A stretch of DNA of 22,549 bases. It comes from a virus. The stretch covers positions 1 to 22,549 of IMG/VR virus record IMGVR_UViG_3300020061_000027. One strand, written 5' to 3'. Shown here one piece after another: positions 2,651-18,561 of this stretch. A program made the translations under genes and the position numbers. The notes under the pieces are model-generated. The model ran no database searches and was not told where the DNA came from. It was given only the letters and a program-made list of their open reading frames with translations. Position 1 is the first letter of the stretch, and each line of letters starts with the position of its first letter.

Positions 2651-2989
2651 CTAGTAGTTGCGCGTCATCGCGAACCAGGCGATGACCTGGCCCTTCTTGT
2701 TCTTGCCCTCGGCACGATCGCTGACGCTGACAAAACTGCCGTCCATCGCTGCCTGGTCGCACGGAGTGTGCAGAACGGCCTGGCGAAGGATGTCTTTCTG
2801 AGGGGTGTACCAGACCTGGACCTCTTCCTTGAGCGGGTAGCCCGCGTGGTTGGCCAGCCGCTGGAGGTGACTAGTGATCGGCAACGTCACCTCGCGGGCG
2901 AAGGTGTCGAGCCACGGCAGGCGTCGCGGTTCTTCTTCGACCCAGCCGTATGCCTTGGCGGTTGCGATGATGTCTTCTCGGGTGCTCAT
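2651..2989 (-). CDS. Hypothetical protein, 112 aa
   Basis: ATG at 2987-2989 directly follows the TAG of the upstream gene (2990-2992). The SD GGAGG lies in that gene's last codons, so the pair is translationally coupled. The N-terminal part (residues 1-40) is helical with acidic and Arg-rich segments. The middle contains a YTPQKDILRQAVLHT stretch, and the end a beta-type 'KKGQVIAWFAM' strand. I recognise no family. It is leftward, between two other small leftward genes. Confidence 0.7.
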   Translation of the reverse strand: MSTREDIIATAKAYGWVEEEPRRLPWLDTFAREVTLPITSHLQRLANHAGYPLKEEVQVWYTPQKDILRQAVLHTPCDQAAMDGSFVSVSDRAEGKNKKGQVIAWFAMTRNY

Positions 2990-3223
2990 CTATCCCTCCA
3001 GGATGGACTTGAGGATGCGGAGCTGCACGTGCTCGGGCAGTGTGCCTGAGACGCGGACGTGTGGGGTCTCGTTGCGGGTACCGCTCTTGGCGAACTTGGG
3101 AAAGGTCACCCTCCAGAGGTTGCCCTCGCCGGTACGTCGCGCTGAGGCGACTGTCGCGCCGGTCAGGACGTTCCTGCCGACGAAGTGGTCTGGTCCGAGA
3201 CGGACCACGTGATTGAAAGCCAT
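2990..3223 (-). CDS. Hypothetical protein, 77 aa
   Basis: The start is the ATG at 3221-3223 (MAFNHVVRLG...), chosen for CAGGAG six bases upstream inside a CACTCACACAATCAGGAG leader; the frame runs further upstream without such support. The product is basic and beta-rich, with an LWRVTFPKF segment resembling the LWRVT of the gene at 2304-2582, so the two may be distant paralogues. It is the first gene of the leftward trio. No function can be assigned. Confidence 0.7.
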   Translation of the reverse strand: MAFNHVVRLGPDHFVGRNVLTGATVASARRTGEGNLWRVTFPKFAKSGTRNETPHVRVSGTLPEHVQLRILKSILEG

Positions 3224-3494
3224 GATGATCTCCTGATTGTGTGAGTGGATGGGGTGAATCGGGTAGTCCCTGGTCAGGCGGCTAAGCTCGGCGGTCACCA
3301 CTCCGAGGCCCTATCGGCAATCCAACAACTCCCTGTCTCCCTTCGTCTGTGGTCGTGTGGCGCAGGCCAGCTAATCCGAATGGTCTAGGCCCGTCAAAAC
3401 GGGTTTCACATCCGTGGCAGTCCTGCCGTGTTCTCCCTCGCGAGTCGAACATCTTCTACAACCTGACTGTAGGGCGATCCATTCCGACATGCTA
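3224..3494. other. Intergenic region between divergent gene groups
   Basis: This gap separates the leftward trio from the rightward run. It holds a short hairpin CCCGT-caaa-ACGGG near 3390-3403 and a GGCAG-tc-CTGCC hairpin near 3415-3427. The stretch around 3355-3455 has some tRNA-like look but no clean acceptor stem, anticodon arm or T-arm, so no RNA gene is called. Confidence 0.3.
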
Positions 3495-3510
3495 TGTGAC
3501 GTGCATCACA
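3495..3510. promoter_or_regulatory. Perfect CRP-type operator TGTGA-N6-TCACA
   Basis: TGTGA at 3495-3499 and TCACA at 3506-3510 are separated by six bases; the palindrome extends by one base on each side. This is the known consensus of E. coli CRP and of mycobacterial CRP (Rv3676-type). Its centre lies about 43 nt upstream of the start point predicted from the -10 candidate TATCGT at 3534-3539, a class II activator geometry. Host CRP control is inferred. Confidence 0.55.
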
Positions 3511-3539
3511 TGGCCTCAGGGAATGAGTGGGGGTATCGT
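3511..3539 (+). promoter_or_regulatory. Weak promoter candidate upstream of the 3584 gene
   Basis: TGGCCT (3511-3516), 17 nt and TATCGT (3534-3539). The -35 is poor, as expected for an activator-dependent promoter placed next to the CRP-type site. Assignment rests on spacing only. Confidence 0.3.
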
Positions 3540-3583
3540 CTGGTTGTACGAGGTGTTCGACACTCACCCACACAGGAGACATC

Positions 3584-3982
3584 ATGACACGCACCTACGA
3601 ACGCCAGATCATCAAGTACTCGCGCTCTGCCATCGATCAACTCGAAGCCGAAGGCCGCGCGGTTTATTTCCCGGGCCTGCCCGGATACGTCCTCGACAAG
3701 AAGATCCCGGTGCGCAACCACCAGATCCTCGAAGACGAGGCCCCCTTCGTCAATCATTCCGAGGACCCGGACGCTGCCTACGAGCGCTTCCTGGAGACCC
3801 GCTACGCCGATGAACACCGGGCCGAAGAGGCCGTCGAGCGGGCCAATGGCGCTCTCGATCACTACGAGGCCGCTGCAGCCGCCGCAGGCGTCTCGGTCGG
3901 CGAGTACACCGACGGTGAGTACGGCTCGTTCGGCCCGGATTCCGCCGAGGAAGACGCCCTGCTGGCGAAGTTCGGCCTCTGA
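3584..3982 (+). CDS. Hypothetical acidic protein, 132 aa
   Basis: ATG at 3584 follows ACAGGAG inside a CACTCACCCACACAGGAG leader, which decides the start over the longer frame. The product (MTRTYERQIIKYSR...) has an N-terminal basic part, then an acidic helical stretch with EEAVERANGALDHYEAAAAAA (about residues 84-104), consistent with a coiled or amphipathic helix. No known domain is recognised. It opens the rightward run and is the only gene in the window with a perfect CRP-type operator upstream. Confidence 0.75.
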   Translation: MTRTYERQIIKYSRSAIDQLEAEGRAVYFPGLPGYVLDKKIPVRNHQILEDEAPFVNHSEDPDAAYERFLETRYADEHRAEEAVERANGALDHYEAAAAAAGVSVGEYTDGEYGSFGPDSAEEDALLAKFGL

Positions 3983-4008
3983 CCCATTACCTCGGGGAAT
4001 GAAACCAC

Positions 4009-4037
4009 CTATGGTGTGGTTACAATGAGGGTAAGAC
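4009..4037 (+). promoter_or_regulatory. Promoter candidate for the 4071 gene
   Basis: CTATGG (4009-4014), a 17-nt spacer containing GGTTACAA, and TAAGAC (4032-4037). It closely matches the candidate at 2609-2637. The -35 box overlaps a small AACCAC/GTGGTT hairpin. Confidence 0.45.
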
Positions 4038-4070
4038 ACACGCACACAGACACACAGACAGGAACTAGAA

Positions 4071-4232
4071 ATGTCCACCATCACTGCCCTCGGAGTCTCG
4101 AACATCGGGCGCGTCCAGGCCGATCAGGCTCGCCGCCGTAGCAACGCGGCGACCACCAAGAACGTCCGCGCTCTCGCCCGTAAGGGTGTCGGCAAGGGTG
4201 GCAAGCAATCTTGGCGAAAGGAGGCCTGGTGA
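4071..4232 (+). CDS. Small basic protein, 53 aa
   Basis: ATG at 4071 lies after a purine-rich leader (CACACAGACAGGAACTAGAA). The product starts MSTITALGVSNIGRVQADQA and is rich in Arg and Lys from residue 20 to the end, with a KGVGKGGKQSWRK tail, so nucleic-acid binding is possible. The stop overlaps the GTG start of the HNH gene (GTGA at 4229-4232), which implies coupled translation. No homologue is recognised. Confidence 0.65.
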   Translation: MSTITALGVSNIGRVQADQARRRSNAATTKNVRALARKGVGKGGKQSWRKEAW

Positions 4233-4699
4233 CGCAGTGGAGGTCTGTAGTTGGGTGGCCTAAATACCTCATCTCTGATGACGGTCAGACCATCGGACCA
4301 CATGGACACGTGCTGAAATCACGTCCTGACAAGGATGGTTATCTGCGCGTAAATCTCTACAACGGTTCTCGTGAGTCGATGACCACCGGCAAGATTCATG
4401 TACTCATGTTGGAGGCTTTCGTTGGATCACGTCCCGAAGGACTGTTAGGTCTTCATCGCAATGGACAAAACACTGATAATCGAGTCGAGAATTTGTACTG
4501 GGGCACGCCGACAGAGAATGTCGCTGATGCCATTCGACATGGGACTTATCGAAACGGGTGGTCCGACAGAACTCACTGCAAGAATCAGCACGAATACACA
4601 CCTGAAAATACTCGTTGGCTTGCACGCGGAGGCCGTGAATGTAGGGCTTGTCGAAGAGATTTTGATCAGCGTCGATGGGCTGCAAGCAAGAAGAAATGA
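4229..4699 (+). CDS. HNH homing endonuclease, NUMOD4-like
   Basis: GTG at 4229 is preferred to the TTG at 4211 because AAAGGAGG sits 5 nt upstream and the start overlaps the previous stop. Residues 1-35 (TQWRSVVGWPKYLISDDGQ) match the NUMOD4-type N-terminus of phage and intron HNH enzymes. The HNH region is VLMLEAFVG-x-RPEGLLGLHRNG-x-NTDNRVENLYWGT-xx-EN, with the catalytic His and Asn visible. A CxxC pair (ECRAC) follows near the C-terminus. Its codons are clearly richer in A/T in third position than those of the neighbours, as expected of a mobile gene. It probably nicks or cuts DNA at a specific site and spreads itself. Confidence 0.85.
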   Translation: MTQWRSVVGWPKYLISDDGQTIGPHGHVLKSRPDKDGYLRVNLYNGSRESMTTGKIHVLMLEAFVGSRPEGLLGLHRNGQNTDNRVENLYWGTPTENVADAIRHGTYRNGWSDRTHCKNQHEYTPENTRWLARGGRECRACRRDFDQRRWAASKKK

Positions 4700-4731
4700 C
4701 CCATTTCACCACTCACACAGAAGGAGCCACC

Positions 4732-4995
4732 ATGACCACCAGCATCCTCCCCTCCCTGAAGGGGTCCATCCGGACACACAACACAACCAGCTTCGCCGTT
4801 GCCTACGGCGATGCCACCGCGCTCTTCCTCGACGGCACTCACACCATCGGCGGGCGGCGCAAGGAGAAGTTCGAGCAGGCCCGGGGCCGCGCGCAGACCG
4901 CGCTGGCCTACACCGACGAGCCGGTCGAGAAGCTGCTCGCCGCCCAGTTCCTCTCGGTCCTCAAGCTCGCTGAGCAGCGTGGGTGGGACTTCTGA
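4732..4995 (+). CDS. Hypothetical protein, 87 aa
   Basis: ATG at 4732 follows the canonical CACTCACACAGAAGGAG leader, which rules out the longer frame from 4675. The product has a small beta-rich N-terminal half (SFAVAYGDATALFLDGTH) and a helical C-terminal half ending QRGWDF. The stop overlaps the next ATG (TGATG at 4993-4997). No family is recognised. Confidence 0.7.
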   Translation: MTTSILPSLKGSIRTHNTTSFAVAYGDATALFLDGTHTIGGRRKEKFEQARGRAQTALAYTDEPVEKLLAAQFLSVLKLAEQRGWDF

Positions 4996-5151
4996 TGGCC
5001 ACTATCACGATCACGGTGTCCGACCTGGATGAGGTCGAACACATGGCCGACTACCTGCGCGAGGTGGCCGACCGACCAAGTCGAGAACGGATTCACCAGC
5101 GGGCACGTCGATCGCGACCGGCATTGGGCTAGTGAAGGGATCACGATCTGA
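4995..5151 (+). pseudogene. Small conserved-type protein broken by a 4-nt duplication
   Basis: The ATG at 4995 opens MATITITVSDLDEVEHMADY-LREVAD and then runs into an Arg-rich frame that stops early (TAG after PALG). The +1 frame continues VENGFTSGHVDRDRHWASEG and ends in TGA at 5149-5151, overlapping the next ATG exactly like its neighbours. At the junction GACC is repeated in tandem (GACCGACC near 5070-5077); removing one copy restores LREVAD-QVENGFTSGHVD. The intact form would have 50 residues. It is a recent duplication or a read error; programmed shifting is less likely. Confidence 0.65.
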
Positions 5152-6834: not shown

Positions 6835-6897
6835 ATGTTCGAGCTGTTCCGCCCCGTGCCCCCGATTTGGCGATATTCGCCGTCTCTGGGTCAGTAG
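6835..6897 (+). CDS. 20-residue leader peptide upstream of tRNA-Pro/Trp/Tyr
   Basis: The ORF reads MFELFRPVPPIWRYSPSLGQ and ends in TAG at 6895-6897. Its ATG lies 8 nt after a -10 box, so the mRNA would be nearly leaderless. It contains four Pro codons, one Trp and one Tyr, and the three tRNAs that follow are Pro, Trp and Tyr. The last codons overlap the left arm of the inverted repeat at 6870-6925. This layout is that of a ribosome-sensing leader (attenuator). Translation is not proven. Confidence 0.45.
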   Translation: MFELFRPVPPIWRYSPSLGQ

Positions 6898-6925
6898 CTC
6901 CTACTCTCAAGACGCCGAATATCGC
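6870..6925. promoter_or_regulatory. Inverted repeat overlapping the leader ORF end
   Basis: GCGATATTCGCCGTC (6870-6884) pairs with GACGCCGAATATCGC (6911-6925) with one mismatch and a 26-nt loop. It ends 16 nt before tRNA-Pro. A stalled ribosome in the leader ORF would cover the left arm. It could be an attenuator stem or a processing stem. Confidence 0.5.
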
Positions 6926-8714: not shown

Positions 8715-8785
8715 GCTCCATTAGCTCAATGGTAGAGCGGCGACTTCTAACCTCGCTGGTGCCGGTTCAACTCCGGCATGGGGCG
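8715..8785 (+). tRNA. tRNA with anticodon CTA (amber-reading candidate)
   Basis: Acceptor GCTCCAT/ATGGGGC, D-arm GCTC-AATGGTA-GAGC, anticodon arm GCGAC-TTCTAAC-CTCGC, T-arm GCCGG-TTCAACT-CCGGC, discriminator G. Standard numbering from the D-stem puts CTA at 34-36, which reads UAG. The 31-39 pair is C-C. Reading it as TCT (Arg) would break more stem pairs, and a separate Arg(TCT) tRNA exists at 12591. Confidence 0.65.
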
Positions 8786-8863
8786 CTCGGGAAATAATCT
8801 GCTTGCGCTGCCAAGCAACAACGCATACCCTGATCAAGTCACCTCGGGCAAGCCTGAGTGGCC

Positions 8864-9010: not shown

Positions 9011-9032
9011 CGACGCAGCAGACCATATCACT

Positions 9033-9137
9033 GGCGAAAACCAGAATCGAACCGTCTGTTGCATCAACTTGAATGCCAGGCCGATGAGTATTTCGGTTAT
9101 CGCCGGTTCAATTCCAGTCTCGGGGACCACATCCCCG
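9033..9137 (+). other. Spacer hairpins with an isolated T-arm-like sequence
   Basis: GGCGA-AAACC near 9033-9043 pairs with GGTT-A-TCGCC near 9094-9104. It is followed by GCCGG-TTCAATT-CCAGT, a T-arm-like segment with no matching acceptor, then a hairpin CTCGGGG-accacat-CCCCGAG (about 9117-9137). It may be a decayed tRNA. No anticodon can be assigned. Confidence 0.3.
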
Positions 9138-10086: not shown

Positions 10087-10134
10087 AATGACGACCAAAC
10101 GGGCCATGATCCCCACGCTCTACTCGTCGTCATT
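10087..10134 (+). repeat. 30-nt-loop hairpin element, copy 1
   Basis: AATGACGAC (10087-10095) pairs with GTCGTCATT (10126-10134). The loop is 30 nt, starts CA, and has TGATCCCCA at loop positions 12-20. It lies between tRNA-Glu and tRNA-Gly. Confidence 0.8.
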
Positions 10135-12405: not shown

Positions 12406-12458
12406 CACCCGATTGCCATGTTGGGCATGATTATCCATAGAAGTGTCGCGATCGGGTG
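12406..12458 (+). repeat. 30-nt-loop hairpin element, copy 2
   Basis: CACCCGATTGC (12406-12416) pairs with GCGATCGGGTG (12448-12458), one G-T. The 31-nt loop starts CA and has TGATTATCCA (a 10-nt core variant) from loop position 12. It lies between tmRNA and tRNA-Gln. Confidence 0.75.
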
Positions 12459-12536: not shown

Positions 12537-12588
12537 ATCTCGACGACCAGGCTTGAGACGATGCCCAGAGAAGATTCGTCGTCGAGAT
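12537..12588 (+). repeat. 30-nt-loop hairpin element, copy 3
   Basis: ATCTCGACGAC (12537-12547) pairs perfectly with GTCGTCGAGAT (12578-12588). The 30-nt loop starts CA and has CGATGCCCA at positions 12-20. It lies between tRNA-Gln and tRNA-Arg(TCT). Confidence 0.85.
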
Positions 12589-13195: not shown

Positions 13196-13669
13196 ATGAC
13201 CGAACTTCGAGAACTGATCCGCAAGGTATCAAGTCAGTATCCCAACGCTTCCTCAGGTGAGCTTGCTCGACACGTCGCCAAGTTGACGCCAGCAGACGTC
13301 CTGCTGGAGTACTACGAGGAAGCCTTGCGTCCTCAAGTCGCCGAGGTCTTGCGGCTGGATCGCAACGAAGCCATCACCAACGCCCTGTCCGACTCGCCGC
13401 ATCCACTGCCACAGCAGCCTCGTCGCTCCAAGAAGGTCGCAGGCATCGCCAACTGGTGGGCCAAGATGCTGGAACAGATCATTCCTCTGGCCGACGGCCC
13501 CAAGAAGTTGGGCGACGCCACTGTGGAGGACCTGAACTTCGCCATCGATCGCCGCAAGGCCCAGATCGAGCAGGACAAGATCAAGGTTGCCGAGTTCGAG
13601 CAGTTGCGTGACTGGATGCTCACTCACAACGCGACGACCCTGCGAGAGGCACCGCCGATGACGGCCTGA
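13196..13669 (+). CDS. Hypothetical helical protein, 157 aa
   Basis: ATG at 13196 has no SD; the -10 box 8 nt upstream suggests leaderless translation. The product (MTELRELIRKVSSQYPNASS...) is mainly helical, with a Pro-rich linker (PHPLPQQPRRSKK, about residues 68-80) and a C-terminal coiled-coil-like helix (AIDRRKAQIEQDKIKVAEFE, about residues 116-135). The stop is followed within a few bases by the first hairpin of the tandem array. No family is recognised. Confidence 0.7.
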   Translation: MTELRELIRKVSSQYPNASSGELARHVAKLTPADVLLEYYEEALRPQVAEVLRLDRNEAITNALSDSPHPLPQQPRRSKKVAGIANWWAKMLEQIIPLADGPKKLGDATVEDLNFAIDRRKAQIEQDKIKVAEFEQLRDWMLTHNATTLREAPPMTA

Positions 13670-13672
13670 GAC

Positions 13673-13725
13673 TTGGCGTCGGCCATTCAAGCAGCGATCA
13701 CCCACCGCCCCATTGCCGCCGCCAA
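13673..13725 (+). repeat. 30-nt-loop hairpin element, copy 4 (tandem array 1)
   Basis: TTGGCGTCGGC (13673-13683) pairs with GCCGCCGCCAA (13715-13725), one T-C mismatch. The 31-nt loop starts CA and has CGATCACCCA from position 12; the extra base is inside the core. Confidence 0.8.
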
Positions 13726-13731
13726 CCAACT

Positions 13732-13783
13732 TCCAGATCAGCCAAAAGGACCTCGATACCCATCTCCTCCACGCTGATCTGGA
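13732..13783 (+). repeat. 30-nt-loop hairpin element, copy 5 (tandem array 2)
   Basis: TCCAGATCAGC (13732-13742) pairs perfectly with GCTGATCTGGA (13773-13783). The 30-nt loop starts CA and has CGATACCCA at positions 12-20. CCAACT precedes the stem. Confidence 0.87.
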
Positions 13784-13790
13784 CCCAACT

Positions 13791-13844
13791 TCCCCTCCAG
13801 CCATTTCCCCAACGAAATGTCCATTATTCACACGCTGGAGGGGA
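13791..13844 (+). repeat. 30-nt-loop hairpin element, copy 6 (tandem array 3)
   Basis: TCCCCTCCAGC (13791-13801) pairs perfectly with GCTGGAGGGGA (13834-13844). The 32-nt loop starts CA and has CGAAATGTCCA from position 12; two extra bases lie in the core. CCAACT precedes the stem. Confidence 0.82.
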
Positions 13845-13850
13845 CTCAAC

Positions 13851-13906
13851 TTCCGAGACCGACCACATCCCTATCGTCACCTAAAACCTGAACGTCGGTC
13901 TCGGAA
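13851..13906 (+). repeat. 30-nt-loop hairpin element, copy 7 (tandem array 4)
   Basis: TTCCGAGACCGAC (13851-13863) pairs perfectly with GTCGGTCTCGGAA (13894-13906). The 30-nt loop starts CA and has the diverged core CGTCACCTA from position 12. It ends just before the leader of the 13937 gene. Confidence 0.82.
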
Positions 13907-13936
13907 CACCCACTCACACAGAAGGAGCATCATCAC

Positions 13937-14947
13937 ATGAGCACCAACAAGACTCCCCAGGCCGACCATGAGGGAAGCGAAGCCCATATGGCCTCCGTCG
14001 GTCTGGGAGACATCCTGCGCAGCCCCACCCTCGGCCTCGCCGCCGAGATCGTCGACGATCTGGAGCGCGTACGCATCGCCAATGAGAACCGTCTGCGCCA
14101 GCTCACGCGCACCGAGGAGGACTCCGACGGTATCGTGCGTGGCTTCGAGCTGGACCCTCGTCATCCTGACGTCTTGCGCCTACAGCATCTCGTCGACGGC
14201 CTGTCAGCCTCCTACGACGAGGCCGTGAAGAACCTCCAGAAGACCATGCGCGCCCACCCTCTCGGCGCGTGGGTCAAGAAGACCTCAGGGGTCGGTGAGA
14301 AGCAGGCCGCGCGCCTGCTGGCCGCGATCGGGGACCCGTACTGGAATGACGGGTTCTACCCCGACCCCGACGGCAAGATCGACAAGGAGGGCAAGGTCAT
14401 CACCTACCCCCGCGATCGTCCGCGCACCGTGTCCGAGCTGTGGGCGTTCTGTGGTTACCACGTACTTCCCAGCGGCCAACACACGATCGAAACCCAAGTG
14501 CCAGACGCCGCTGGGACCAACCTTCACGCCGGGAGTCATTGTTCCAGCGATACCCAGAAGACTTCCGCTCCCGGCGTGGCAGCTCGTCGCAAGAAGGGCG
14601 CGAAGATCAACTGGTCCACGACGGCCAAGATGCGCGCATTCCTCATCGCCGAGTCCTGCGTCAAGGCCAAGACCTCGCCCTATCGCAAGGTCTACGACGA
14701 GACGCGAGCCAAGTACGCCGACGCCGTGCACAAGGTGCCCTGTGAGCGCTGTGGACCGTCAGGGAAGCCTGCGCTGCCTGGTTCTGCCCTCAACCCTGGA
14801 CACCAGCACGCACGCGCCCTGAGGGCGATCAGCAAGGCCGTGCTCAAGGACCTCTGGATCGAGTCGAAGCGACTCCACGAACTGCAGCAGATGCAGACCA
14901 TGTACGACTCGGATTCCAATTCAGGAACGTCTGCGTCTGCTGCCTAA
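13937..14947 (+). CDS. IS110-family transposase-like protein (Transposase_20 part only)
   Basis: ATG at 13937 follows the canonical CACTCACACAGAAGGAG leader. The 336-residue product has an N-terminal helical region (about 35-105). It then has the Transposase_20 pattern: TSGVGEKQAARLLAAIGDP (116-134, helix-hairpin-helix), RTVSELWAFCGYHV (163-176), RRKKGAKINW...KMRAFLIAESC (218-241) and HARALRAISKAVLKDL (291-306). The N-terminal DEDD RuvC-like catalytic domain of IS110 transposases is absent, so it looks domesticated or dependent on a partner. A CxxC/HxH group (CERCG...HQH, 269-291) may bind zinc. Residues about 177-215 are encoded by two hairpin elements inserted in frame. Four hairpins precede the gene and two follow it. 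It probably binds structured DNA or RNA; activity is unknown. Confidence 0.6.
   Translation: MSTNKTPQADHEGSEAHMASVGLGDILRSPTLGLAAEIVDDLERVRIANENRLRQLTRTEEDSDGIVRGFELDPRHPDVLRLQHLVDGLSASYDEAVKNLQKTMRAHPLGAWVKKTSGVGEKQAARLLAAIGDPYWNDGFYPDPDGKIDKEGKVITYPRDRPRTVSELWAFCGYHVLPSGQHTIETQVPDAAGTNLHAGSHCSSDTQKTSAPGVAARRKKGAKINWSTTAKMRAFLIAESCVKAKTSPYRKVYDETRAKYADAVHKVPCERCGPSGKPALPGSALNPGHQHARALRAISKAVLKDLWIESKRLHELQQMQTMYDSDSNSGTSASAA
14467..14516 (+). repeat. 30-nt-loop hairpin element, copy 8, inside the IS110-like gene
   Basis: TCCCAGCGGC (14467-14476) pairs perfectly with GCCGCTGGGA (14507-14516). The 30-nt loop starts CA and has CGAAACCCA at positions 12-20. It is read in frame. Confidence 0.85.
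14525..14578 (+). repeat. 30-nt-loop hairpin element, copy 9, inside the IS110-like gene
   Basis: CACGCCGGGAGT (14525-14536) pairs with GCTCCCGGCGTG (14567-14578), one T-G. The 30-nt loop starts CA and has CGATACCCA at positions 12-20. In tandem with copy 8, 58 nt apart. Confidence 0.85.
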
Positions 14948-14955
14948 AAGCCACT

Positions 14956-15005
14956 CGACGGTGACCAACTATGAGGCGAAACCCAAGACCCCTGTGTCGC
15001 CGTCG
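14956..15005 (+). repeat. 30-nt-loop hairpin element, copy 10
   Basis: CGACGGTGAC (14956-14965) pairs with GTCGCCGTCG (14996-15005), one T-G. The 30-nt loop starts CA and has CGAAACCCA at positions 12-20. It follows the stop of the IS110-like gene. Confidence 0.83.
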
Positions 15006-15015
15006 GGTCTGAACT

Positions 15016-15073
15016 GATCCGCCGACGGCCATCCGCGACTCGATACCCAGGACTAGGACGCCGTCGGCGGATC
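15016..15073 (+). repeat. 30-nt-loop hairpin element, copy 11
   Basis: GATCCGCCGACGGC (15016-15029) pairs perfectly with GCCGTCGGCGGATC (15060-15073). The 30-nt loop starts CA and has CGATACCCA at positions 12-20. Its left arm begins exactly 60 nt after that of copy 10. It lies between convergent genes and may also end transcription. Confidence 0.88.
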
Positions 15074-15075
15074 TT

Positions 15076-16998
15076 TCAGTCATCCAATCCAATGAGCCAG
15101 TCGATACTGCCCGACTCTGGCACGTCGATCATGCCATCGCCGTACGACAGCTCTTCTCTGGTTCCTTGCACCGCCTCGGCGAGCTGCCGACGCGCCTCGC
15201 AGACCTGCCAGATCCGCTCCTCGACCTTGGACTCCGTCGTGATCATCACGTAGGCCGTCAGGCCGTCCAGATGACTGTCGGCGCGGTCGATGCGGGAGTT
15301 GCGTTGGGTCAGATCGTCGTAGCTGTAGAGCGGATCGATCGAGATGACGTAGCGGGCCTCCTGGAAGTTCAGCCCGTGAGTTCCGGCATCGGAGGTCAGG
15401 AAGCAGGTGATGTCCGAGTTGGTCTTGAAGTCGTCCTGGGCCTTCTGAGAGGCCTTGTCGGTCTGGCCGGTGCCGTAGTGCAAGACGTGGGGCACCTTGA
15501 TCAGCGGGTCCATCGGCAGGATACCGAGCTGAGTCCAGTGGCAGAACACCACGGCCTTGTCCTGGCCCTCCCGGATGCCGTCCAGGCGGTCGTTGAGCAT
15601 CTCCAGCTTGTTGCTCGCCGACGGCACGCACAGGCTGCGGTGCTCGGTCCAGATCTTCTGGGCGATCTCGTTGTCGGAGTGCTGCAGCACCGCCGGGTTG
15701 ATCGCGGCCAGCCGCATGGCCAGATAGTGCGGGGCGCGGCTCTCGCCCTTCTCCCGGCTCTCCCGGGCGTCGGCGGTGATGATCTCGTTGATCTCGGCCA
15801 GCTCCGAGGTCATCGGCACCCACTCCGGGATGCACTGGATTCCTTTGAACTGCTCCTTGATGCCCGGCTCGGTCTTGCGCACCGCCATCATCCGGTCCCC
15901 GACCCGGTGGCGGACCTCATGCAGCTCGGGTAAGTCCCAGTCATATTTGGTGAGGGTGAATTGGCCACCGTTCTTGGCCTTGATCGGGATCGAGGTGACC
16001 TTCTCGGCGTAGCGGTCGACGAAGTCCTGCTTGGATCCCAGCGGATTGTCGCGGGGGTAGGAGTCCAGGGAGAAGACGTCCCGGAAGCGCAGTGGGTTGC
16101 CGCCGACCACGGTGGCCGACATGGGCCACACGATCGCCGTACAGCCCCGTACGAGCTTGTCTAGGGCCTTGCGGGCCTTGTTCTGTCCCGACTCGGCGAT
16201 GACCTTATGGGCTTCATCCAGGACGAACAGCACCCGACGGCCTGCGGTCAGCTCCTCCAGCGCATCGAAGTCGACCCACAACTTTTCGAAGTTCATCACG
16301 AAGGCCTGAATGCCCCCGCCGTCGAGCCGATGATGGGTATCACACACGATGTGGACGGCGGAGGCAGCTTCAGCATATCGTGCCCGCCGCGTGGCGGGTT
16401 TGGCGTGGTCGTTGATCATGACCCGCAGCCCGGCGTCGTTGACCCAGGTGCGCTTGAGGTTCTCCTTGAGCTTGCTCAGCGTGCAGGCGATCACCACGTC
16501 GACGTCGCCGGAGTCGAGCAGGGCCTTCACCGCCGCCCCGGAGCAGAAGCTCTTGCCCGCCCCCGCCGACCAATTCCAGAAGAACATCCGCTCGCCGTGG
16601 GTGCCGCCCTGGCGCGCACGCTCCAGCGCGTGGTTGAGCCCGAAGTTCTGAAACGCCCGCAGCTCGTAGCCCTCGATCTCCAGGGGTAGTGACCAGCGGG
16701 CGTGATCGGCCAGCATGGCCTTCGTCGACGGGGTGAAGAGGTAGGAGTAGCCGTCCTTGGTCAGTTGGGCGGCGAACTGGTCGAGTAGGTGCAGACCGTT
16801 GAGGATGAAGTGTCGACTCATCCAGTCGTGGTACTCGGTGTAGAAGGCGCCGCGTGCGTCGGCGTCGAGCGGCTCGACGTGCAGATATCCCTCGAATTCA
16901 GGGTGGTCGGCGAAGATCACGATCTTGGAGAGGTCGACGCCTTGGTCCAGAAACGTGATCGCGGCAGCCTCGACATCCTCGACTACGCTGAATGCCAT
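15076..16998 (-). CDS. SNF2-type DEAD/DEAH helicase (DNA-dependent ATPase)
   Basis: The ATG at 16996-16998 (MAFSVVEDVEAAAITFLDQG) is chosen because a -10 box TAGACT ends 8 nt upstream; the frame open further upstream has no support. The 640-residue product shows Walker A GAGKS (146-150), DEAH box in VLFVLDEAHK (261-264), motif III SAT (294-296), motif V in TSDAGTHGLNFQEA and motif VI QRNSRIDR (565-572). The two RecA lobes and Q-R-x-x-R of superfamily 2 SNF2 enzymes are therefore complete. It probably translocates on DNA in replication or recombination. It is the only leftward gene after 3.2 kb. A hairpin element is inserted in frame at residues 212-229. Confidence 0.85.
   Translation of the reverse strand: MAFSVVEDVEAAAITFLDQGVDLSKIVIFADHPEFEGYLHVEPLDADARGAFYTEYHDWMSRHFILNGLHLLDQFAAQLTKDGYSYLFTPSTKAMLADHARWSLPLEIEGYELRAFQNFGLNHALERARQGGTHGERMFFWNWSAGAGKSFCSGAAVKALLDSGDVDVVIACTLSKLKENLKRTWVNDAGLRVMINDHAKPATRRARYAEAASAVHIVCDTHHRLDGGGIQAFVMNFEKLWVDFDALEELTAGRRVLFVLDEAHKVIAESGQNKARKALDKLVRGCTAIVWPMSATVVGGNPLRFRDVFSLDSYPRDNPLGSKQDFVDRYAEKVTSIPIKAKNGGQFTLTKYDWDLPELHEVRHRVGDRMMAVRKTEPGIKEQFKGIQCIPEWVPMTSELAEINEIITADARESREKGESRAPHYLAMRLAAINPAVLQHSDNEIAQKIWTEHRSLCVPSASNKLEMLNDRLDGIREGQDKAVVFCHWTQLGILPMDPLIKVPHVLHYGTGQTDKASQKAQDDFKTNSDITCFLTSDAGTHGLNFQEARYVISIDPLYSYDDLTQRNSRIDRADSHLDGLTAYVMITTESKVEERIWQVCEARRQLAEAVQGTREELSYGDGMIDVPESGSIDWLIGLDD
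16312..16365 (-). repeat. 30-nt-loop hairpin element, copy 12, inside the helicase gene
   Basis: On the minus strand GCCTCCGCCGTC pairs with GACGGCGGGGGC (12 bp, one T-G). The 30-nt loop starts CA and has TGATACCCA at positions 12-20. Orientation is that of the helicase coding strand, and it encodes residues 212-229. Confidence 0.75.
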
Positions 16999-17073: not shown

Positions 17074-17123
17074 AACGGTGCCCCTCTTCACAGGCCATGG
17101 AAGCCTCGGAGGGGCACCGTTTT
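17074..17123 (+). terminator. Rho-independent-type terminator
   Basis: AACGGTGCCCCTC (17074-17086) pairs perfectly with GAGGGGCACCGTT (17109-17121), 22-nt loop, followed by TTTT on the plus strand. It faces transcription from the left toward the 17.5 kb run. Confidence 0.65.
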
Positions 17124-18162: not shown

Positions 18163-18561
18163 ATGCAGGTCAAAGATGAGCAAGCCTGGACGACCCAGCT
18201 CATGGAGTTGGAGGCAGACGATTACACCCGCAAGTTCAAGACCTTCCTGGTCTTCTGGATGGACACTGCGGACAAGATGGTCCTCGAACAGTTCCCGCTA
18301 AACTCAGATCACCCAAAACTGCAGCTCGCAGCCGCTGTCGGCAAAGCCCTTGCCGTTGCCGAGCAAACATTCGGCTTCCTCGCCGTCGAGTGGATCGCCC
18401 AGATGCTGCTGATCATGACCGAGCACTGGAAGTACGGCGACGACCTCTACGAGGACCTCTCGCTCATCGAGCGGAGACTGGTCGATACGGCCATCGCGAT
18501 GAAGCTCACAGACCTTCAGGAGAGTGCCCGGTTGGGTGCTAGTATTCCTACAGAGGAGTGA
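18163..18561 (+). CDS. Hypothetical helical protein, 132 aa
   Basis: ATG at 18163 lies 9 nt after the HNH stop, with GTAGGG as a poor SD. The product (MQVKDEQAWTTQLMELEADD...) is almost all helical and has a hydrophobic stretch AVEWIAQMLLIM (about residues 74-85), too polar around it for a sure membrane span. No domain is recognised. Expressed with the HNH gene by spacing. Confidence 0.7.
   Translation: MQVKDEQAWTTQLMELEADDYTRKFKTFLVFWMDTADKMVLEQFPLNSDHPKLQLAAAVGKALAVAEQTFGFLAVEWIAQMLLIMTEHWKYGDDLYEDLSLIERRLVDTAIAMKLTDLQESARLGASIPTEE

Follow-up and report, generated by a model that had tools for sequence, protein, structure and literature searches.

What kind of element is formed by a phage gene whose flanks, and whose own reading frame, are crowded with hairpins? 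The question is raised by a stretch of 22,549 nucleotides (nt), positions 1 to 22,549 of the IMG/VR virus record IMGVR_UViG_3300020061_000027 (the window in what follows), a 22.5-kb fragment of an uncultured phage that carries 25 tRNA genes, one tmRNA gene and a helicase gene about 79% identical to those of Bxz1-type mycobacteriophages. The gene in question lies at 13937-14947, and a preliminary description of the sequence had offered three explanations for the hairpins around it: a guide-RNA system tied to IS110 transposases, a REP/RAYT-like system, and a type III toxin-antitoxin-like repeat RNA. Our analysis of sequences and predicted structures indicates that the gene is tasA and not an IS110 transposase, and that the locus is a stem-loop-type TIGR-TasA system, a reading to which we assign a probability of roughly 0.88. 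TIGR-Tas systems, an RNA-guided means of DNA binding described only recently, combine Nop-domain Tas proteins with dual-spacer guide arrays (Faure et al., 2025, PMC12045711).

The identification starts from the protein. Over residues 33-310 of its 336, the window protein matches the NCBIfam model TIGR_Tas_endo (NF052498) with 226.5 bits (E 3.6e-67, cut-off 100), a model that also matches all 31 aligned homologues, and a profile of these homologues finds TasR (E 9.8e-29) and TasH (E 7.4e-16) among PDB sequences. The AlphaFold2 model (confidence score, pLDDT, 84) has a Nop fold that superimposes on TasR (9mty) with Z 17.8 and 1.7 Å over 188 residues, and on TasH (21kl) with Z 17.4; the aligned part of TasR begins at its residue 112. 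The comparison with IS621/IS110 suggested in the preliminary description does bring out a shared Nop-like fold (Z 12.0 for IS621), but one less close than that of TasR or TasH. TasR and TasH carry RuvC or HNH nuclease domains and are accompanied by dual-repeat arrays, whereas the window protein has neither; the lack of a nuclease domain in the window protein points to TasA as opposed to TasH or TasR. The earlier description of the protein as having the Transposase_20 part of IS110 transposases without the RuvC-like part was right in substance, although a Pfam search at E 0.1 gave no match for the window protein, and Transposase_20 is matched weakly by three of the 31 relatives (best E 3.1e-4). 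Homologues of tasA occur in 83 phage records.

The second line of evidence is the hairpins. A scan for stems closing a loop of about 30 nt located 15 hairpins of guide design in the window, where twelve had been counted before: four upstream of tasA, four inside it, two downstream, four in the tRNA array and one in the helicase gene. Of the eight previously placed around the gene, the four upstream in tandem stand at the 59-60 nt period described (59, 59 and 60 nt), but the gene contains four hairpins and not two, and the downstream pair is 63 and not 60 nt apart. The features of the locus, with the helicase hairpin, are as follows.

13196-13669, plus strand: partner gene phrog_4604, 157 amino acids, all-helical model (match to phrog_4604, E 4.5e-26)
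13673-13725, plus strand: predicted guide hairpin, upstream tandem 1, CCA-N9-YG-N5-CCA-N9-YG, 11-bp stem with a mismatch
13732-13783, plus strand: predicted guide hairpin, upstream tandem 2 (stem scan, covariance model, strict motif)
13791-13844, plus strand: predicted guide hairpin, upstream tandem 3 (stem scan, covariance model, strict motif)
13851-13906, plus strand: predicted guide hairpin, upstream tandem 4, 13-bp stem, covariance model match; its inner box C is CTA, outside the strict motif
13937-14947, plus strand: tasA, predicted solo Nop-domain TIGR-Tas effector, 336 amino acids (NCBIfam NF052498); labelled elsewhere as transposase or hypothetical protein
13956-14007, plus strand: predicted guide hairpin in the tasA frame, N-terminal extension (stem scan, covariance model, strict motif); encoded residues of low pLDDT
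14467-14516, plus strand: predicted guide hairpin in tasA, encoding a disordered loop (stem scan, covariance model, strict motif)
14525-14578, plus strand: predicted guide hairpin in tasA, in the disordered loop shared with the hairpin at 14467-14516, 12-bp stem, covariance model match
14884-14943, plus strand: predicted guide hairpin in tasA, C-terminal extension, 15-bp stem (covariance model, strict motif)
14953-15008, plus strand: predicted guide hairpin directly downstream of tasA (stem scan, covariance model, strict motif)
15016-15073, plus strand: predicted guide hairpin downstream of tasA, 14-bp perfect stem (covariance model, strict motif)
16311-16366, minus strand: predicted guide hairpin inside the helicase gene, on the sense strand of that gene (stem scan, covariance model)

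The loops are mostly exactly 30 nt long, and the stem sequence varies from unit to unit. Each unit has the layout stem-CCA-9 nt-YG-linker-CCA-9 nt-YG-stem, with a linker of 4 nt where the loop is 30 nt long and with both 9-nt segments free in sequence. This is the conserved core flanked by variable loop sequence that had been recognized correctly at the outset, and it proved the key to identification: TasR guides have a CCA box C, a UG box D and 9-nt spacers, and stem-loop arrays with variable palindromic stems have been reported in two clades (PMC12045711). We collected 97 unique hairpins with a filter on the loop start and a CCA-like motif in mid-loop, 62 of which have a 30-nt loop. At positions that the filter does not use, these 62 are close to invariant, with a pyrimidine at position 12 (62/62), a G at 13 (61/62), a pyrimidine at 30 (62/62) and a G opening the 3´ arm (60/62). 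In 36 sequences, seven of eight stem pairs changed on both sides (covariation score 0.967, against 0.205 when shuffled); the percentage of stem pairing is circular, as the units were found by their stems, but the variety of pair types is not.

A strict motif-plus-stem scan of 77 homologue loci (664,707 bases) gave 425 matches on the gene strand and four on the opposite strand, against 3.6 and 3.4 in shuffled sequence, so that the hairpin count is far above chance. These loci omit 14 (L014-L027) that are shorter copies of included contigs and retain seven identical pairs; with identical loci removed, 374 gene-strand and four opposite-strand hairpins are left in 70 distinct loci. Within 2 kb of tasA lie 413 of the 425, and at least one hairpin was found in 75 of the 77 loci. 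An absence of hairpins next to homologues in related phages, which the preliminary description would have taken as a refutation, is not what is seen: the strict scan detects hairpins in 68 of the 70 distinct loci, and those of the remaining two are deviant. The related phage Alice, which is without tasA, has no guide hairpin by the covariance model over its whole genome. By their sequence design, then, the hairpins are identified as guide units of a TIGR-Tas stem-loop array. One cluster A guide (L007, 3711-3775) has a 39-nt loop, and its linker can fold a small GGC/GCC hairpin ahead of box C.

The locus resembles the published TasA stem-loop arrays, such as that of a Peromyscus gut contig, in having a solo Nop effector with tandem variable palindromic stem-loops beside the gene (PMC12045711). 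It differs from what the main text of that paper describes in three respects: guides within the tasA frame, guides flush with tRNA and tmRNA genes, and a conserved partner gene. With regard to the first, 96 of 184 strict hairpins in 31 loci lie wholly within the tasA frame, in 21 of the 31 loci. They fall in N-terminal extensions (74), one internal loop (17) and C-terminal extensions (5), and never in the conserved core; frames were taken to begin at the earliest start codon following a stop, which may inflate the N-terminal count but leaves the 17 and 5 unaffected. The low-confidence stretches of the window protein model, residues 1-20 and 180-208, coincide with hairpin-encoded parts.

The partner gene, a phrog_4604 homologue encoding a helical protein of about 155 amino acids, is found upstream of tasA in 76 of the 77 loci, and tblastn with the phrog_4604 protein finds 76 phage records, against 83 for TasA. 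Its model is confident (pLDDT 92.4), with no convincing match in Pfam, NCBIfam or PDB and no solved fold relative at E 0.001; at the same threshold, four phage proteins match among viral structures, two of them named and belonging to Omega and Rich. The main text of the TIGR-Tas paper gives no clear protein association for TasA (PMC12045711).

The third difference concerns the tRNA array, where four further hairpins of the window follow a tRNA or the tmRNA at a distance of 1-3 nt from its 3´ end.

9015-9062, plus strand: guide-like hairpin, 3 nt past the 3´ end of tRNA-Met (strict motif); the weakest of the set, with a 9-bp stem
10087-10134, plus strand: predicted guide hairpin, 2 nt past the 3´ end of tRNA-Glu (strict motif)
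12406-12458, plus strand: predicted guide hairpin, 2 nt past the tmRNA and 4 nt ahead of tRNA-Gln (strict motif)
12537-12588, plus strand: predicted guide hairpin, 1 nt past the 3´ end of tRNA-Gln (covariance model, strict motif)

The same arrangement recurs in a 118.9-kb phage contig (G014), in which 13 guides are interspersed in a single stretch of 37 tRNA genes, all on the same strand, and in two further phages with one and three guides among their tRNA genes. Sixteen of these 21 guides lie at most 5 nt from a tRNA or tmRNA end, whereas random placement gave a mean of 1.7 and a maximum of 8 in 20,000 trials; the remaining five adjoin another guide hairpin within 10 nt, so that all 21 abut an RNA gene or a guide. 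Guides are found next to 5´ as well as 3´ tRNA ends, in every case on the strand of the tRNA. Three of them (L135, 12921-12964; L164, 12009-12060; window, 12406-12458) occupy the space between two RNA genes, with no more than 5 nt left on either side; a similar gap-filling guide at L157, 9867-9918, has a 1-nt overlap. With guides set flush with tRNA ends, tRNA-end processing would release them. Kruszka reportedly described plant tRNA-linked C/D guide RNAs in 2003. The closest precedent that we found is a C/D sRNA of Nanoarchaeum equitans, which lies immediately downstream of a tRNA and whose 5´ end RNase Z has been proposed to form (PMC3491384). The phage guides resemble these archaeal and plant guides in being of C/D type, in adjoining a tRNA and in their proposed release by RNase Z, and differ from them in being phage-encoded, in their number per tRNA array and in having DNA-targeting relatives.

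Alternatively, abutment might be a trace of the sites at which guide units insert or recombine and have no bearing on their processing. In favor of this explanation, phages recombine at tRNA ends, and the tRNA arrays of five tasA phages (G001, G039, G004, Peregrin and Talia1610) contain no guides by the strict motif, an absence that also counts against our own reading. Set against this, insertion would have to account for guides at both tRNA ends, for their constant strand and for the three filled gaps, and we consider it rather unlikely.

The spacers, in contrast to stems and boxes, change quickly. Across four orthologous hairpins in 13 cluster A loci, each hairpin has 2-4 stem variants and 6-10 loop variants, and mean nucleotide diversity is 0.572 for spacers, 0.114 for stems, 0.061 for box C and 0.025 for the tasA gene; the loci are close relatives and thus non-independent, and the flank diversity of 0.223 is inflated by a longer-linker hairpin left unlabelled in the strict scan. 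In the comparison of array content in sister phages advised in the preliminary description, it is the spacers that differ, and stems, boxes and flanks are kept.

Cluster J offers a closer view. Phage Omega (our locus L083, which is taken to be Omega) has a 2.2-kb insertion at 2947-5127 comprising four guides, the partner gene, one guide, tasA and two guides, and its tasA product, gp21, matches NF052498 with E 1.8e-65. The element was published as an "IS110-like transposon", a discrete insertion with a 5-bp duplication (PMC3706429), and its empty site is seen in Ariel, LittleE and Courthouse. With the same protein family, guides and partner gene in the one insertion, we read it as a complete TIGR-TasA cassette, which suggests that the cassette moves as a unit. 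Just outside the insertion stands a guide common to eight cluster J phages (Omega, Ariel and six others), in which flanks are nearly identical, the stem is almost identical and the boxes are the same, with three different spacer pairs. On this sequence evidence, the spacers are replaced in situ, and the stems, boxes and flanks around them remain fixed. The whole genomes of Ariel, LittleE and Courthouse lack tasA, and this guide is the only one that they contain; such orphan guides may use the TasA of another phage or prophage, or may be remnants.

What the guides recognize was sought in several sequence sets. As the main target form we took spacer A followed by the reverse complement of spacer B, because cleavage 5´ of the fifth paired base then uniquely yields the published 8-nt 3´ overhangs; this argument is our own derivation, and two passages of PMC12045711 word the cut side differently. 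The alternative form was used as well in the searches of loci, own genomes and tRNAs. When 361 guides were compared with 1.58 Mb of loci (both strands, both geometries, at most two mismatches), 68 matches were found, against 46 and 44 with spacer B shuffled, a difference that we do not read as an excess because 10 near-identical cluster A loci each contributed the same site and a low-complexity 16-nt guide added to the count. Eighty guides searched against their own genomes in 14 phages (both geometries, gaps of -2 to +3, at most three mismatches) gave no excess; 24 of the 73 available nine-plus-nine guides of the mycobacterial set, searched against 98 Mycobacterium genomes, gave a best match of 17 nt and no recurrent full site; two guides had no match in the phage collection; and an exact search of IMG/VR with three cluster A guides found none. 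For the conserved cluster J guide, the predicted target has three exact 18-nt matches in IMG/VR (L176, L177 and L178), possibly by chance, and a best match of 16 nt in the phage collection. A comparison of 399 guides with 247 tRNAs in both geometries showed no enrichment. Among these 399, only the guide-like hairpin at 9015-9062 has a spacer B that is the complement of a tRNA T-loop; this may be chance, a decayed tRNA or a tRNA-gene target.

Comparisons of sequences and models establish the family and fold of the protein, the architecture of the guides, their abutment on tRNA genes and overlap with coding sequence, the partner gene and the turnover of spacers. We propose the following mechanism. 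The hairpins would be transcribed as guide RNAs, in which a variable stem closes a loop with two 9-nt spacers lying between CCA box C and YG box D. A TasA dimer would hold the guide, with one box C/D pair per protomer, and, by analogy with TasR, each DNA strand would pair with a different spacer, one with A and the other with B, across some 18 bp in total. Since TasA is without a nuclease domain, the target would be left uncut, and TasA may bend or block it; guided binding of double-stranded DNA without cutting is suggested by the kinship with TasR and TasH. Guides would come from three sources, namely tandem arrays beside tasA, the tasA mRNA, and tRNA/tmRNA operons, where the enzymes that process tRNA ends (RNase P, RNase Z or bacterial equivalents) would release them. 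Fast spacer change with stems and boxes kept is in line with a system directed against opponents that themselves change, of which competing phages or other mobile elements are the most likely. More tentatively, we put forward the combined proposal that tRNA-end processing matures the guides set between tRNA genes, that paired spacers are swapped in place by active diversification or exchange, and that the single guides of tasA-less phages could use TasA from another phage or prophage.

Several points weigh against this account. No guide has a target better than chance in its own genome, the loci, the Mycobacterium genomes or the phages, so that the search of loop segments against genome and host advised earlier brought no target to light; the targets may lie in unsequenced rivals. 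An Arthrobacter phage locus (L012) has stem-loops whose boxes match poorly. Finally, transcription and processing of the hairpins are steps that we infer, the processing route from position. The lack of a DNA target would also follow if TasA and its guides acted on RNA in the manner of box C/D sRNPs, pairing with transcripts that come, for instance, from the host or from rival phages. In favor of this, snoRNPs likewise have a Nop fold and box C/D guides, and the tRNA-linked sRNA of Nanoarchaeum, with its proposed RNase Z release (PMC3491384), is a precedent of that kind; against it, the nearest solved relatives, TasR and TasH, bind DNA, TasR was inactive on RNA substrates (PMC12045711), and guide matches were not enriched in the 247 tRNAs. 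We judge action on RNA improbable.

The remaining explanations fare worse. An IS110-like element with a bridge RNA is what phage annotations (phrog_4285 is labelled transposase) and the Omega paper would have, and the discreteness of the Omega insertion and its 5-bp duplication (PMC3706429) agree with it. The guide-RNA idea of the preliminary description and the tie to IS110 drawn there hold insofar as a Nop-like RNA-binding fold and dual guides in loops are common to both, here with two guide segments per loop. Yet the window protein scores 12.4 bits against a cut-off of 140 (NF033542), has no DEDD domain and no room for DEDD/RuvC, and folds more like TasR and TasH than IS621; moreover, the window has 15 one-loop guide units in place of one two-loop bridge RNA, and no transposon ends were found in it. 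An IS110 element is accordingly very improbable, and still less credence attaches to REP/RAYT-like palindromes spread by a domesticated transposase: hairpins are indeed concentrated at the gene, with others at scattered sites, but the stem sequence changes from unit to unit and the box motifs and 9-nt spacing do not, the hairpins are almost all on one strand, and no HUH transposase match was found in Pfam. A type III toxin-antitoxin locus was rejected, as the units are not repeats of one sequence, a repeat finder detected no tandem repeats, and the gene has no Pfam family.

Other features of the window stand apart from the guides. A perfect 13-bp inverted repeat with a 22-nt loop (17074-17121) lies in the gap that separates the start of the helicase gene from the next gene, and a near-perfect 16-bp inverted repeat with a 24-nt loop (6870-6925) lies just ahead of the first tRNA of the array; neither is of guide design. 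Within the array, a tRNA with a CTA anticodon (8715-8786) is labelled Pyl by ARAGORN, and a CTA suppressor is annotated in the tRNA array of phage Alice. Three kb from the TIGR locus, a plus-strand gene at 18163-18558 encodes a predicted Tad4-type inhibitor of Thoeris defence (Pfam PF25186, E 1.3e-20).

The class of system to which this locus belongs is known, and the literature that we found joining mycobacteriophages with TIGR-Tas is confined to PMC12045711, which cites a mycobacteriophage review only. As far as term searches and sections of its main text show, tRNA-linked guides, in-frame guides, the partner gene, in-place spacer replacement and orphan guides are not among the features described; tRNA is mentioned there only in the references, and the clade itself may be listed in the supplement. 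The same paper lists guide maturation, spacer origin, the role of TasA and natural targets as open questions, with most loci metagenomic. In 83 phage records, the genes that at present bear the label "transposase", "DNA binding domain protein" or "hypothetical" can be renamed. Phages of Mycobacterium smegmatis and Gordonia terrae that can be cultured and have been sequenced carry the system, and close relatives among them differ mainly in spacers. Guides flush with tRNA ends amount to a testable proposal for maturation and would be a phage counterpart of archaeal tRNA-linked C/D guide RNAs, and the replacement of spacers in place within near-identical cluster J DNA is a clean natural experiment on spacer turnover.
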